The notes under the pieces are model-generated. The model saw only the letters and a list, made by a program, of their open reading frames with translations, did not search any database and was not told where the DNA came from. Both the position numbers and the translations under genes were made by a program. 64,000 nucleotides of DNA, taken from NCBI GenBank assembly GCA_029209985.1, contig JARGNZ010000006.1, forward strand, positions 1 to 64,000, read 5' to 3'. The stretch is from Parvibaculaceae bacterium (GTDB lineage: Bacteria; Pseudomonadota; Alphaproteobacteria; Parvibaculales; Parvibaculaceae). Within the stretch, counting starts at the first letter, position 1, and each line of letters begins with the position of its first letter. This document shows positions 31,014 to 63,351 of the stretch, in pieces.

Positions 31014-31220
31014 TTTGAAGGGCTTTGCTCTTCGTTCGTAGTCCTCGTGGAGGCTCAGGTCCGCCGCATTTCCTGACACTACGAGGCAGGCCGGTCGGTT
31101 GAGTGGTATGGAGTGGCCTCCTCTAGTTAGCCGCATCTCTGATCGGCCACCGTTTCCTGTGACGACGTTGGAAACGAGGGACCGGACCTTCATTTGATTG
31201 AAGGCCGGTCCCGTTCGTTT
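31014..31220 (+). ncRNA. candidate structured non-coding RNA (strand uncertain)
   Basis: The gap between the pleD terminator and the HAD gene holds five helices in a row. They are GAAGGGC/GCTCTTC (31017-31033, one G-T pair), CCTCGT/ACGAGG (31043-31086, enclosing TCAGG/CCTGA), GGCCGGTC/GATCGGCC (31089-31148, enclosing GGAG/CTCC), CGTTTCC/GGAAACG (31151-31176) and GGGACCGG-CCTTCA/TGAAGG-CCGGTCCC with one bulged A (31178-31212). A TATAAT lies at 31002-31007 on the plus strand, a good distance ahead of the first helix, although no clear -35 box is seen. The minus strand has an open frame of 90 codons (30957-31229) without a ribosome site or family similarity, so I read the region as RNA rather than protein. 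The last helix could also be the terminator of the minus-strand HAD gene, although it has no T-run on either side. Confidence 0.4.
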
Positions 31221-53067: not shown

Positions 53068-53409
53068 GACAGTCTACCGCGTCTGCGGGGCGTTTTGGCT
53101 CAATTTGAGCTTGCCCCGCAGAGCGAAGACGCCAGATTTTTACTGAGTTCCTAGTCAGTTTCTGGTGGGAGCTTTCATTTGCTCCGGTTTCTGGCTGTTT
53201 AACTTCTACGTGCTCATTTCTCATATTTTGCCAATGCGTATCCATCGTTCTGATGTGTGATCAGTTGATGGGCGCACTTTGATGCCCAGCTTTTGCGCTG
53301 CTAATGGCTTTCCCAACCTCAAAATAAGACATCTTGGAAAACCGTGGTATATTGATGCGGAATAGAAGAGCGGTATGCTCTTCCATATGGTTTGACGAGG
53401 GGAAGTGCT
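53056..53409. other. intergenic region with large stem-loop
   Basis: The region between the H1-like gene and the small secreted protein gene. A long stem TCTGCGGGGC/GCCCCGCAGA (53082-53122) encloses GCTCA-at-TTGAGC, so nearly the whole 41 bases pair. There is no T-run after it. No gene is seen in the rest. Confidence 0.5.
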
Positions 53410-57953: not shown

Positions 57954-58046
57954 GGAGAGGTGGCCGAGTGGCTGAAGGCGCTCCCCTGCTAAGGGAGTAG
58001 GCGGTGTTGAACTGTCTCGAGGGTTCGAATCCCTTCCTCTCCGCCA
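57954..58046 (+). tRNA. tRNA-Ser (anticodon GCU), CCA encoded
   Basis: A 93-base class II tRNA. The acceptor stem GGAGAGG pairs with CCTCTCC, followed by discriminator G and CCA. The D arm contains GGCCGAGTGGCTGAAGGC and the anticodon loop CTGCTAA holds GCT (reads AGC/AGU). A long variable arm of about 20 bases identifies Ser, and TTCGAAT is in the T loop. It is followed by the accessory region. Confidence 0.95.
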
Positions 58047-58248: not shown

Positions 58249-58974
58249 ATGTCCCGGATTGTCTTTTTTCATGTTCCTAAATGTGCTGGCTCCACTGTTT
58301 ACACCCATTTGGAGAAGTATTTGGGAAAGACGCGTTTTGAGAGAATTTTGGGGCGTAGGCCTACTGTGCTGGTCCATACTAAACATCATGCAGAGCGCTT
58401 GGATGAGAAGCTGAAATTTGCACGTAAAGCACGTTTTATTTATGGGCATTTTGACTGGAGCACATACGCTAAGATGGGAGCAAGCGATCAGGATTTTCGA
58501 TTTACATTTTTGAGAAATCCAGTTGAGCGTTTGCAAAGTGCGTATAATTTTTTCTGTAGCGATCAGGGTTGGAAATTTATCTCTCTTACCGGAAGGCACG
58601 AAGATTGGTCTTTTAGAGATTTTCTGACGAATACAGATGATTCAACTTTTTGGCAGTTGGATAATGTCATGGTCCGTATGTTTGGTGGGCAGTTGGACCA
58701 CCGGTTTACAACGGATGAGGAGTGGGAAGGATTGTTCGAGACTGCCAAGCGGAACTTGGACACTTTCGACTTTGTTGGTTTTCAAAATAGCTTCGGGCGT
58801 GACTTAGAAAAACTGTGCGGGTTGATCGGTGTCGGTGGTAAAAAAATTGTCACCAACAATGCGACAGACCATAAAAAGACGTATGAGCGTGATGATGAGC
58901 TTCTTGCTTTGATTGATCGTTGCACCAAGTGGGATCAAAAGCTGTATGACTATGCGATGGAAAAATTTGCATAA
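58249..58974 (+). CDS. sulfotransferase family protein
   Basis: A 241-residue sulfotransferase-fold protein. The 5'-phosphosulfate loop is IVFFHVPKCAGSTVYTHLEK at the N-terminus and the 3'-phosphate site is FTFLRNPVERLQSAYNFF near residue 88. It resembles the Sulfotransfer_2/Gal-3-O-type family that transfers sulfate from PAPS to carbohydrates. No signal peptide or membrane segment is visible. The gene is AT-richer than most of the window (sampled lines run near 35-40% GC) and lies 203 bases after tRNA-Ser, both hints of acquisition. The substrate is unknown. Confidence 0.82.
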   Translation: MSRIVFFHVPKCAGSTVYTHLEKYLGKTRFERILGRRPTVLVHTKHHAERLDEKLKFARKARFIYGHFDWSTYAKMGASDQDFRFTFLRNPVERLQSAYNFFCSDQGWKFISLTGRHEDWSFRDFLTNTDDSTFWQLDNVMVRMFGGQLDHRFTTDEEWEGLFETAKRNLDTFDFVGFQNSFGRDLEKLCGLIGVGGKKIVTNNATDHKKTYERDDELLALIDRCTKWDQKLYDYAMEKFA

Positions 58975-59110
58975 GCGTTCGTGTGATCTATTGGTGGGTA
59001 GGTTTGCTTCGGAATGCCTGTTTTGACTGACGGTCGGGAAAAACGCCTCAAAATGGGTTGGTTTGTCAAAAAAATGTCACTTAAAAGCTCGTCTTCAGTT
59101 TTAACCTTCC

Positions 59111-59116
59111 TATAAT
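59111..59116 (+). promoter_or_regulatory. -10 box for the small-gene leader
   Basis: TATAAT, with transcription then expected to start at about 59123. The -35 region is not clearly conserved. Confidence 0.4.
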
Positions 59117-59129
59117 CAACATGCAGATA

Positions 59130-59190
59130 AGCGGAATCGGATTTACCGATAGCGCTGATGAGAAGCGGAGCCGAAATATCGGTAGCGCTG
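59130..59190 (+). promoter_or_regulatory. tandem structured 5' leader elements
   Basis: Two near-identical hairpin units, 59130-59156 and 59164-59189, separated by 7 bases. Each has an outer stem AGCG/CGCT, an internal loop GA/AG that could form tandem G-A pairs, and an inner 5-bp stem. The inner stem differs but keeps pairing: ATCGG/CCGAT in unit 1 and GCCGA/TCGGT in unit 2. The apical loops are ATTTA and AATA. They lie upstream of the ribosome site AGGAG (59194-59198) of the small gene. They could be a regulatory RNA element, or DNA repeats for a protein. Confidence 0.6.
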
Positions 59191-59204
59191 GAAAGGAGAC
59201 TGCA

Positions 59205-59399
59205 ATGACGAGTTACTTTATGCGTAAATGGATGTTGGGAGCCGAGGTCAAAGAAGGCTCACAACGTGACCATGTTGGTATAGATAATCATCACACCAAA
59301 GCAGAATGGGCTGCATTCAACGGAGCGCTTCGCAAGAAGTCCACCGCAGCACAGCGCGCGATGCGCCGGTCAACCGCCCGCGCGGCGCACCACCCTTAA
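59205..59399 (+). CDS. small unknown basic protein
   Basis: A 64-residue protein I do not recognise, basic and His-rich: MTSYFMRKWMLGAEVKEG, GIDNHHTKAEWAAFNGALRKK and a C-terminal RAMRRSTARAAHHP. The ATG at 59205 follows AGGAG by 6 bases; an in-frame ATG at 59121 would include the two hairpins as code and lies too close to the -10 box. A terminator follows 16 bases after the stop, so it is a one-gene transcript. Confidence 0.6.
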   Translation: MTSYFMRKWMLGAEVKEGSQRDHVGIDNHHTKAEWAAFNGALRKKSTAAQRAMRRSTARAAHHP

Positions 59400-59415
59400 T
59401 TGATAGTGATTTGAA

Positions 59416-59450
59416 GAAAGGCCGGAGGTTTTCTCCGGCCTTTCTTATTT
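59416..59450 (+). terminator. terminator after the small unknown gene
   Basis: GAAAGGCCGGAG-gtttt-CTCCGGCCTTTC, a perfect 12-bp stem, then a T-rich tract. Confidence 0.9.
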
Positions 59451-59503
59451 GAATACTTGAGGTCTTTATTCCGCAACGCTTTGCACAAGCGTACTCTGGC
59501 CTT

Positions 59504-60676
59504 TTAGAGCGCACTGAGAAATGCGACCAATGCGGCACGTTCTTTTCTGCTAAGTTTGAACTCTGTAATAAGGGGTGACGTCGTTGAGGCACCCTCAAAG
59601 ATCATGTCGTCTACACCTTTGCGTCGGTTGGGCGATACACGTCCTCCGCCCGCTGCATAAATATTGACGACTCCTATTATGCTCGGGAAAAGACCATTGT
59701 GCATGTATGGCCCAGTTTTTTTTACATGGCGCAAGCTTGGCGTGCGAAATTTTCCAGCATCTAAAGGATCGCCAGTAACGTGGTAACGCCCGAGGTCTTC
59801 GAATTTTCGGCCGTAGTAACTCAAGCCAATGTTGTGAAATTTTTCATCGGTTAACAAAGGTCCGTGATGGCAGTTTGCACACCCTGCCTTTGTTCGAAAG
59901 ATATGCAGTCCATGTAATTCCTCTTCCGTCATTTGTTTTAGGTCGCCGGTTAAAAAACGATCAAACCTTGTAGTCTTTTCTAACGTTGTTTGAAAAGCCC
60001 TGAGGGAATCTAGTATCCACTGCAGCTGAATAGGCTGGTCTGACCGATATATTTTCCTGAACTGGGCAACATAATCTGGGTTTTCGGCGAGCTTTGAAAC
60101 TAAAGTGTTCATATTCTGATTGGCCATTTCATCAGATGCTGTTAGCGGGCCCATAGCTTGGCTTGGTAGATCTTTTGCCCTTCCGTCCCAAAAAAGGGTC
60201 TTCCGATAAGATGCAGAAAAAAGACTAGGGGCGTTCCGCTTTCCTTTTTTTCTGTCGTGACCGAAAGATGTTCGTAATCCATCACCCCAAGCAAGTTCTT
60301 GGTTGTGGCAACTTTGGCACGAGATTTGGCTAGAGGCAGACAAAACAGGGTCTTCGAAAAGAAGTTTTCCGAGTTTAGCTTTCTGTCGTTCAACCGTGTC
60401 TTGTGGGGGTTGTTTTTTTAATGCCCCAAGTTCAATGTAATCTGTGACTTCTTTTTTGAGAAAGGGGGCTGGCCACATGGAAGAGGGTTGTGCATAAATT
60501 TTTTTGAAGTTGGGTGGCGGGACATCATTACGGACGCTGTCAGCATGAACCCAACTGGAGAATAATACGGTTCCGGCTAATGAAAACCCAATGGCAACGA
60601 ATGAGGTGAGACGCATTCGTGCCATTGGACTTATATTAGTTTTTCTAATCAAGTTTGGTCGGTGACGTTTATACAT
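59504..60676 (-). CDS. di-heme cytochrome c peroxidase/MauG-like protein
   Basis: A 390-residue exported protein. An uncleaved basic tail leads to a hydrophobic segment ending VHA (about residue 47), so it goes to the periplasm. There are two heme c motifs, CQSCH near residue 110 and CANCH near 255. GKFRTPSLRHVKKTGPYMHNG near 310 is the usual C-terminal block of bacterial di-heme peroxidases and MauG. It could reduce H2O2 or oxidise a partner protein. It starts just after the stop of the TonB-dependent receptor, so the two should be one operon. AT-richer than the core genes. Confidence 0.87.
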   Translation of the reverse strand: MYKRHRPNLIRKTNISPMARMRLTSFVAIGFSLAGTVLFSSWVHADSVRNDVPPPNFKKIYAQPSSMWPAPFLKKEVTDYIELGALKKQPPQDTVERQKAKLGKLLFEDPVLSASSQISCQSCHNQELAWGDGLRTSFGHDRKKGKRNAPSLFSASYRKTLFWDGRAKDLPSQAMGPLTASDEMANQNMNTLVSKLAENPDYVAQFRKIYRSDQPIQLQWILDSLRAFQTTLEKTTRFDRFLTGDLKQMTEEELHGLHIFRTKAGCANCHHGPLLTDEKFHNIGLSYYGRKFEDLGRYHVTGDPLDAGKFRTPSLRHVKKTGPYMHNGLFPSIIGVVNIYAAGGGRVSPNRRKGVDDMIFEGASTTSPLITEFKLSRKERAALVAFLSAL

Positions 60677-60678
60677 GA

Positions 60679-63351
60679 TTAGAAACTTGCCCCGACAGAA
60701 AGCCAAAATGCTCTACCACGAATATACGGGCGGTCATCATTGGCAACTCTATTACCGATCGCATCAAAAATGTTTGTAACTTTCATTTTCCCATAAAAGT
60801 TACCATACCCAGAAGGTGCAAAAGTGTATTTGGCACTCATATCTGTATAAAGTGTCGCTCCATAGTCTTTGTCAATCCAAACGTCATGGTTACGCCCCTC
60901 AAAGGTGATGTTATTGTCAGAGTCTATGACCCCTCTATAAGGCATGTTGAGGTCGGTGCTCAGATCTACAGATAGTGCATTATTCAGCCACTGGGTCCCA
61001 ATCGACATATTTACCCGGACTGGAATATCCAAATTACCTGTTACAAGCGAGAAGCTGGCAGGGGTGTATGATTTCCCATCATAGAAAATTAAGTCTTCGA
61101 AGAAGTCATCATCAAAGTAGTTATCAGAATCCATTGAACTTTCTGAATAGGTAGCGGATAGCGCGACACTAACTTTATCAAGGTTTTTAACTTCTGTTTC
61201 TGTCCATTCGTTTACGTATTCTGCAGTCAGCGACCTGTAGCTAGAGCTACCACCATTCGTGAGGGTTGCATTGGTTGTGGAGCCTGAACGGGTGAATTGA
61301 TCCCTTGAGTTTCTATCGACTGCTCTTAAACGTATTTGCCCGCCGAGCACAGGCTCTTCTACTTTAAGGCTCGCAGTGATTTCATCTGTGTAGGGAGTTG
61401 ATACACCGCTTTGCTTGTAATTGTATTCGCCAGTGTCTGTTTTCATCGTCCAGCTGTTGGTTACATTGCCTACAGCATCGTGAACCCTTGCGAATGATTG
61501 CCCTCGAGGCTGGTTATCTCTAATGGCATAAACTAGTTCGTTGGCATTGTAGTACCGGTTATAACCTAGAGAGAAATCTGCCCAAGACCAAGGTGTGATT
61601 GTTCCGACCACGCGAGGTGCGATGTTTATATTTTCGAGGTAATCTGCGTAGTCTATTCGCAAGCCGGCACGTATATCGAACCAATCCCACTTTTGTTCCC
61701 ATTCAGCATAGCCGTTTAATGAGAACAAATGTACGGTTGTGTTAAATGCATCCCACTGGGCATAAATATCGGCATATTGATATTGGGAACAATGAGGGTC
61801 ATTTGCATCAAGGCATGTAAAACCTGTTGCAAGAAACCAAGGATCATCTTCAGCATCGCCGATTGTTTCTGTCGCAGTGTAATAGGTGAAATCGTCACGT
61901 TTTCGAGTGGCTTCGATGTTACGAACTTCTCCTCCAACTTTAAAGTTTCCACCTAACAACTCACCTGTGACTTTTGATTTTAAGCCGACCGCGGTTTGTC
62001 CTTGTTCTTTGTCCCCAAATCCTCCTCGGCGGCAGGTGGTTGAGGTGCCGTCTTCTTGACACCAGTCAATACTTGGGTCGACCCAACCATCGCTTTCTCG
62101 TTTTGTATAAGAATAAGCAATTTGGGCGTTGGAATTGTTCGTTGTGTAATTATCGTTGTAGTAAGCGATTGATTGCATTTGAATGTCTTGGATTTGCAAC
62201 CCAAGGATTTCGAGTGTCTCGACACTTGCTTCGTGCCTGAGCTGGTTTGTGATGCCATAGCTTGCAATATCTAGTTCCATATCTAACCAGGACACACTTT
62301 CGAAATCTTGATAGTAGTCGGTGTACGAGGTTTCAAAAGTCCACTGGCCTATCTCACTTTCGTAAGTGAATGACCCATGCAGAAAGATATTTTCTGATTC
62401 TTCGTGTGCCCAGGCATCGAAAAATTCATAATCTTTTTGTTTGGCAGTTTTTGCATTTTGCTGGCTTACAGCGAACAAGAAGCTTGTTTTATCTGTAAGG
62501 GGGGCGCCAAAAGATGCCGCTTTTTTCCACTTTGTGAAAGTTGGTGCCTGGCGGTTTTTCGGGTTATCGCCATCTTCTGTGCCTAGCTTATAGTTCACCA
62601 TCTCATCATTTTGAAAGCTGACATCGACACTGGCGATAATGCCATCTTTAGGTGGTTTAATCAGCTCGTATTCGACAACGCCACCTTGGAATTCACCGTA
62701 TTCACTTGAAGCGTTGCTATCGGTAAGTGTGACAGTGTTAACAAAGGCTGAGGGGACGAAGATAGCCTGTGAGTGTAATCCATATACTAAATCTGCATTT
62801 GGCGTGTTTTCATCACTATCTAAAATCGCTGCTGACTTTTCAGTGGAGCCGGTGATGGTGTTAATGGTAACGCCGTTCAGCATTATGTTGTTTTCATCGA
62901 AACCAGCACCAGAGATAGAGAATTCTCGAGGTCGTAGATTAATGACATCCTGACCATCTTCACCTGCATCATCGTTAGTATCGTCAATATATTGTACATT
63001 GGGCATTGAGCGCAGAAAGCTGTTTGCATCGCCAGAACCATCGACACGCGCTTGAAAGTTTTCTTGAGAGAGATGGCTGGTGCCTGTATCTGCCCCAGAA
63101 TCACCACCTAATTTCTGAAAAACTGTTGGGGAGACGACGTAGATTGTTTCCAGATTCGTATCATTTAGTATTTCTTGCGTTTCGGCGACTGGTTGCTCTG
63201 TCAGTGTTGGTGGGGCTGTGGATGTGTCTTCGGCTTGTACGCCTAAAGGTGCCATGAAAAATAAAGCAGGCAGAGCAAGAGAAAGTGTAAGGAATTTGTA
63301 AGGTCGTTTTAGGTGTGGGATTCCTTTTGAAGGAAGTCGTTGTGAGTACAT
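60679..63351 (-). CDS. TonB-dependent outer membrane receptor
   Basis: An 890-residue receptor. A signal peptide ending VQAED is followed by a likely TonB box, ETIYVVSP near residue 68. The plug (about 75-210) has QVINLRPREFSISGAGFDENNIMLNGV. The rest is a 22-strand barrel closing with FWLSVGASF, the terminal Phe for assembly. Several extracellular loops contain Cys pairs (CQEDGTSTTC, CLDANDPHC). The ligand is unknown; iron chelates are likely since a perfect Fur box precedes the gene. No neighbouring periplasmic binding protein or ABC genes are seen. The peroxidase gene follows with a 2-base gap. Confidence 0.9.
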   Translation of the reverse strand: MYSQRLPSKGIPHLKRPYKFLTLSLALPALFFMAPLGVQAEDTSTAPPTLTEQPVAETQEILNDTNLETIYVVSPTVFQKLGGDSGADTGTSHLSQENFQARVDGSGDANSFLRSMPNVQYIDDTNDDAGEDGQDVINLRPREFSISGAGFDENNIMLNGVTINTITGSTEKSAAILDSDENTPNADLVYGLHSQAIFVPSAFVNTVTLTDSNASSEYGEFQGGVVEYELIKPPKDGIIASVDVSFQNDEMVNYKLGTEDGDNPKNRQAPTFTKWKKAASFGAPLTDKTSFLFAVSQQNAKTAKQKDYEFFDAWAHEESENIFLHGSFTYESEIGQWTFETSYTDYYQDFESVSWLDMELDIASYGITNQLRHEASVETLEILGLQIQDIQMQSIAYYNDNYTTNNSNAQIAYSYTKRESDGWVDPSIDWCQEDGTSTTCRRGGFGDKEQGQTAVGLKSKVTGELLGGNFKVGGEVRNIEATRKRDDFTYYTATETIGDAEDDPWFLATGFTCLDANDPHCSQYQYADIYAQWDAFNTTVHLFSLNGYAEWEQKWDWFDIRAGLRIDYADYLENINIAPRVVGTITPWSWADFSLGYNRYYNANELVYAIRDNQPRGQSFARVHDAVGNVTNSWTMKTDTGEYNYKQSGVSTPYTDEITASLKVEEPVLGGQIRLRAVDRNSRDQFTRSGSTTNATLTNGGSSSYRSLTAEYVNEWTETEVKNLDKVSVALSATYSESSMDSDNYFDDDFFEDLIFYDGKSYTPASFSLVTGNLDIPVRVNMSIGTQWLNNALSVDLSTDLNMPYRGVIDSDNNITFEGRNHDVWIDKDYGATLYTDMSAKYTFAPSGYGNFYGKMKVTNIFDAIGNRVANDDRPYIRGRAFWLSVGASF

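Follow-up and report, generated by a model that had tools for sequence, protein, structure and literature searches.

Tandem hairpins in the probable 5′ leader of an orphan gene from a Parvibaculaceae bacterium

Here we describe two tandem hairpins upstream of a short gene in a 64,000-nucleotide stretch of DNA (the window) and propose, with a probability of around 40%, that they belong to a structured, species-restricted 5′ leader that arose from a duplication of about 34 bp and that stabilizes the mRNA or binds a protein. A local duplication would have doubled one stem-loop, and the copies would then have diverged while pairing was retained in both. A short mRNA encoding a basic protein of 64 residues would carry the hairpins in its 5′ leader of approximately 80 nt; they would begin about 6–9 nt from the inferred 5′ end, and the ribosome site, which lies after hairpin 2 and ahead of the start codon, would stay open. 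Such a leader would most likely act passively or through a protein: stable hairpins near the 5′ end could shield the message from 5′-dependent decay, or an RNA-binding protein, perhaps the basic product, could bind the pair at two sites. In favour of this proposal are the fold (z = −4.34), a layout that is kept through changes in the inner stem, the coding frame and the uniqueness of the tandem in the genome; against it count the single instance, changes that are all transitions, the context dependence of hairpin 2 and the lack of an acceptable −35 box. Neither the hairpins nor the gene occurred in any other genome searched, and a regulatory role for the pair is therefore a guess. Should the leader function as RNA, it would be an example of a regulatory or stabilizing element born by stem-loop duplication in a new, lineage-restricted gene; one unrepeated instance cannot define a class.

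Layout of the locus

The hairpins lie between a TATAAT and a ribosome site (Table 1), as an earlier note on this DNA had described, and their coordinates and layout were confirmed in the sequence. The same note assigned the small gene its own terminator; a hairpin with a 14-bp stem is present downstream, between convergent genes, and may serve both of them. A simple terminator scan did not list it. The core of this hairpin (AAAGGCCGG/CCGGCCTTT) has near copies (82–93% over approximately 30 nt) at many sites in family members, some of which match both strands, as if the core recurred in terminators of the family.

Near relatives (58–59%) of the peroxidase-like gene occur in only 2 of 39 other family members, so the distribution of the locus is patchy. 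The 3′ end of the upstream tRNA has no second copy within the window, which thus gives no hint of attachment-site duplication.

Table 1 Features of the hairpin locus and its neighbours
Feature	Position	Strand	Sequence or basis	Energy alone (kcal/mol)
tRNA gene, just upstream of sulfotransferase gene	57954–58043	+		
Sulfotransferase-family gene, upstream neighbour	58249–58974			
Possible −10 box	59111–59116	+	TATAAT (sequence)	
Possible in-frame N-terminal extension from ATG 59121 (92 aa total)	59121–59204	+	open frame	
Imperfect tandem duplication (34 + 33 nt units) bearing both hairpins	59126–59192	+	alignment	
Hairpin 1	59130–59156	+	AGCG GA ATCGG ATTTA CCGAT AG CGCT	−11.5
Hairpin 2	59164–59189	+	AGCG GA GCCGA AATA TCGGT AG CGCT	−12.6
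Shine–Dalgarno-like site, 6–7 bases 5′ of ATG 59205	59194–59198 (AAGGAG to 59199)	+	AAGGA(G) (sequence)	
64-codon frame, basic orphan protein	59205–59399	+	codon score	
Terminator-like hairpin, 14-bp stem	59414–59446	.	inverted repeat	
Cytochrome-c-peroxidase-like gene, convergent downstream neighbour	59504–60706	−	named from sequence	
TonB-receptor-like frame, adjoining the peroxidase-like gene	60679–63351	−		

A duplicated stem-loop

Both hairpins are built from a 4-bp outer stem, an internal loop, a 5-bp inner stem and an AT loop (ATTTA in hairpin 1 and AATA in hairpin 2). The outer stem (AGCG/CGCT) and the internal loop (GA/AG) are kept in both units, in agreement with the earlier note; in the loop, G faces G and A faces A, and the arrangement is not a sheared tandem G–A. 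The inner stems, ATCGG/CCGAT and GCCGA/TCGGT, had been said to differ at most positions, whereas alignment gives 5 of 10 bases, all of them transitions. From hairpin 1 to hairpin 2, the pairs change from A–T to a G–T wobble, from T–A to C–G and, at the fifth position, from G–C to A–T, with the intervening C–G and G–C unchanged. Compensatory change within the leader is therefore present in two of the five pairs, which changed on both sides, with one further pair becoming a wobble and two staying the same; this is less than had been implied, and involves transitions only.

The repeat reaches slightly past both hairpins (GATA/GAGA on the 5′ side and TG on the 3′ side), and 24 of 34 columns of the unit alignment are identical. 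Owing to the unequal loops, the spacing is 34 nt between the 5′ arms but 33 nt between the 3′ arms. The pattern AGCGGA-N10..20-AGCGCT occurs twice in the window against 0.08 expected (mean of shuffles), and a scan of the window for the layout returned one tandem pair only, that at 59130–59189. No tandem pair with equal outer stems appeared in 20 shuffled windows; pairs with any outer stem averaged 0.6 per shuffled strand. The 93-nt leader (59118–59210) folds at −31.0 kcal/mol, compared with −18.5 ± 2.9 kcal/mol for shuffled versions (z = −4.34), and none of 200 shuffles equalled it. The excess of the pattern, the unique tandem and the fold score together indicate that the tandem is a real duplication of a real stem-loop. 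Among 60-nt segments of both strands, coding segments included, the leader ranks 58th of 12,788 by stability; it is thus stable, yet not extreme.

Transcription, translation and predicted folding

From the position of the TATAAT, we infer a transcript start near 59122–59125. A promoter scan returned no site with an acceptable −35 box, and transcription of the region is therefore putative. We infer that 59130–59189 is transcribed and acts as RNA, in which case the hairpin pair probably lies in a 5′ leader. Frames were scored on codon usage learned from the long frames of the window. With 0.139 bits per codon, the 64-codon frame exceeds every frame-shifted control and falls within the range of true segments (25th percentile); it looks to be coding. 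A 16-codon upstream frame (59158–59208, + strand, MRSGAEISVALERRLQ) lies inside the leader and overlaps the main start as ATGA; it has a non-coding codon score in its frame and no good ribosome site.

In the leader folded alone, both hairpins are predicted to form with a probability above 0.8 and the ribosome site is open (0.89–0.98). In this fold and across the full transcript (59121–59455) with three assumed starts, the hairpin pairs have probabilities of 0.75–1.0, except, in the full transcript, for the outermost pair of hairpin 1 (0.62–0.79). When the transcript ends at 59250, hairpin 2 is predicted to yield to pairing with the coding start and its probability falls to 0.03–0.38 (starts at 59123 or 59125); in the competing fold, the 3′ arm of hairpin 2 binds the coding start and the Shine–Dalgarno site is mostly paired. 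With ends at 59300 or 59455, hairpin 2 is restored and the competing fold is gone. This fold is the sole hint of a switch in the predictions, and it is not robust. A closing helix, TGCAG/CTGCA, is seen in the fold of 59118–59210 and depends on where the transcript starts; a transcript beginning at or before 59120 would lengthen it by CAT/ATG across the start codon. Kissing between the loops would involve at most three A–U pairs, which we judged too weak.

The earlier note had suggested a riboswitch, a protein target or a thermosensor; neither a ligand riboswitch nor a thermosensor is supported. Neither hairpin holds the ribosome site, and no temperature switch was found, nor any phylogenetic recurrence in the genomes searched. 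For the 59123–59250 fold, the predicted opening of the Shine–Dalgarno site stays at 0.30–0.35 over 4 to 37 °C and increases only above 45 °C. These predicted folds lend no weight to a thermosensor or to a switch at the ribosome site: folded by itself, the leader leaves the site unpaired at 37 °C, and no temperature switch shows below 45 °C.

Distribution of the leader

We searched for relatives in a family set of 40 genomes (the source genome and 39 others, equal to the whole order in the collection; one congener is only 70% complete) and in 385 sampled genomes of the class. Covariance models place the element in 1 of the 40 family genomes, the source genome. This genome (3.09 Mb, 99.8% complete) contains only the two hairpin copies at this locus, the next match being chance-like (20.6 bits); a REP/BIME repeat, which would have many intergenic copies, was rejected on this count.

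Across both genome sets, the best outside match to a single-hairpin model (R1) reached 28 bits, compared with 46–51 bits for the true units, and the best outside matches were chance-like on alignment, none of them tandem. A whole-leader model (R2) gave a best outside match of 24.3 bits, against 117.6 bits for the true leader. Of six R2 matches that we inspected, the top one has a poor alignment and falls within a GntR-like regulator frame, the second lies within an amidase-like frame, and the other four have one hairpin only or broken pairs. The exact tandem pattern has nine matches in GTDB contigs, in unrelated phyla, where a rough estimate would expect about six, and two in viral contigs (IMG/VR); none scored as an R1 tandem pair. 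At the DNA level, 59060–59460 shares just the terminator-like hairpin with the family, besides short composition matches, and the regions flanking the peroxidase-like gene in both relatives contain no credible hairpin match. Within the genomes searched, the leader and gene thus appear to be species-restricted.

The 64-residue protein

The predicted protein is basic (12 K+R versus 5 D+E; pI of about 11), and the one feature of its AlphaFold model (pTM of 0.29) is a long C-terminal helix, predicted with low confidence. It has no match in Pfam, NCBIfam or PHROGs; searches of GTDB and viral contigs, which covered close matches, and of plasmids, phages, the family and the class gave no relative. 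The gene has no recognizable metabolic role. Two weak protein matches in the class set (G165 and G200) were set aside as apparently out-of-frame readings of other sequence; one of them contains an in-frame stop and abuts the edge of its contig.

Alternative explanations

A neutral or nearly neutral tandem duplication of a palindromic stem-loop, in which transitions preserved the pairs by luck and no regulatory role followed, is possible but doubtful. The pair is known from a single genome, with no relatives in the sets searched, and the window abounds in single hairpins of this layout (26 on one strand and 13 on the other). In trials of five random stem substitutions, all pairs stayed intact at a frequency of 0.009 with any substitution, 0.035 with a transition-rich spectrum and 0.20 with transitions only. 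Because transitions alone preserve pairing by luck in 20% of trials, the covariation within the leader is suggestive, not strong, and selection on pairing after duplication is less clear than the duplication itself. Arguing against neutrality are the survival of pairing in just 0.9–3.5% of mixed-substitution trials, a fold that beats all 200 shuffles and a placement precisely between a −10-like element and a strong Shine–Dalgarno site. The symmetry might instead belong to the DNA, as tandem operators downstream of the promoter that a repressor binds, with the RNA hairpins a by-product of dyad symmetry; we regard this as unlikely. The inverted repeats, with a 10-base half-site spacing (ATCGG-N5-CCGAT), extend from approximately +7 to +67 of the inferred start, and AGCGCT is palindromic; however, there is no other copy in the genome, and the half-sites differ (ATCGG versus GCCGA) while pairing stays, the reverse of what a sequence-reading protein would need. 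Since the half-sites changed and the symmetry was kept, the operator reading is the weaker for it.

Less probable again is that the region is translated, from a leaderless mRNA that starts at ATG 59121 and encodes a 92-residue protein, with the repeats as coding sequence. This open ATG is in frame and five bases past the TATAAT, and leaderless mRNAs occur among alphaproteobacteria; the distance from the TATAAT is nevertheless short for a start at 59121. The codon score of the 28-codon extension (−0.108) is ambiguous, being in the top 8% of shifted frames but only at the 5th percentile of true segments. A good Shine–Dalgarno site precedes ATG 59205, and the arm spacings (34 nt for the 5′ arms, not a multiple of three, and 33 nt for the 3′ arms) mean that the repeat keeps no single peptide phase. 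Translation from 59121, which the earlier note had named as refuting a leader, is thus disfavoured by the Shine–Dalgarno site and the weaker codon score, with the extension itself ambiguous: a leaderless start is possible, and less likely than a start at 59205. A two-site regulatory RNA of an undescribed class, be it a riboswitch or a protein-controlled switch, that gates the ribosome site seems very unlikely. Two similar modules in one leader speak for it, as does the competing fold of the transcript cut at 59250, in which the Shine–Dalgarno site is mostly paired, but that fold disappears in slightly longer transcripts, the loops share no conserved motif and the gene has no recognizable metabolic role. 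A ligand riboswitch is further weakened because known classes recur across species, unlike this pair, which did not recur in the other species searched. With regard to the protein-binding form of the structured leader that we prefer, self-binding by the basic product is conceivable. It is a long shot that the hairpins form a lineage-specific two-site RNA target, newly created by the tandem duplication, and that the orphan protein attaches to each of them on the message that encodes it, repressing or stabilizing that message as part of a young autoregulatory RNA–protein pair.

Comparison with known RNA families

Rfam gave no match on the leader at the gathering threshold. Relaxing the threshold added only matches that scored far below it and that fell on the hairpin downstream, on the gene or in the promoter region. 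The guanidine-II (mini-ykkC) riboswitch carries ACGR loops. Like it, the locus has two similar hairpins in tandem upstream of a gene. Guanidine-II P1 and P2 kiss loop to loop (PMC9094411, PMC9300104). The loops here are AT-only, with at most three A–U pairs between them; the ACGR tetraloops are absent from both hairpins and the Rfam model had no match, and guanidine-II was rejected. The earlier view that the pair does not match guanidine-II or other familiar tandem elements is supported: Rfam was empty on the leader and the guanidine-II loop rule failed.

ANTAR target RNAs also place two small tandem hairpins in a leader; their stems are approximately 3 bp, position 1 of their hexanucleotide loops is A and position 4 is G, and they overlap a terminator (PMC3369931). 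By contrast, ATTTA and AATA contain no G and are not A1/G4 hexaloops, and there is no terminator between 59120 and 59205; the ANTAR assignment was rejected on both counts. The locus shares stable hairpins near the predicted 5′ end and a single-stranded ribosome site with ompA-type leaders, but differs in that a single module, which contains an internal loop, is present twice. The ompA-type 5′ stem-loop is a structured 5′ leader that stabilizes mRNA. We would class the locus as a further putative structured 5′ leader, restricted to one sequenced species, and would not make it a class of its own.

Other structured elements in the window

Elsewhere in the window, 31040–31153 (+ strand) matches the Rfam EcpR1 (Atu_C6) small RNA (64.8 bits; gathering score, 60) and is among the most stable segments. 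No 60-nt hairpin in the window is more stable than that at 53071–53140, whose energies on the two strands are −36.7 and −36.1 kcal/mol.
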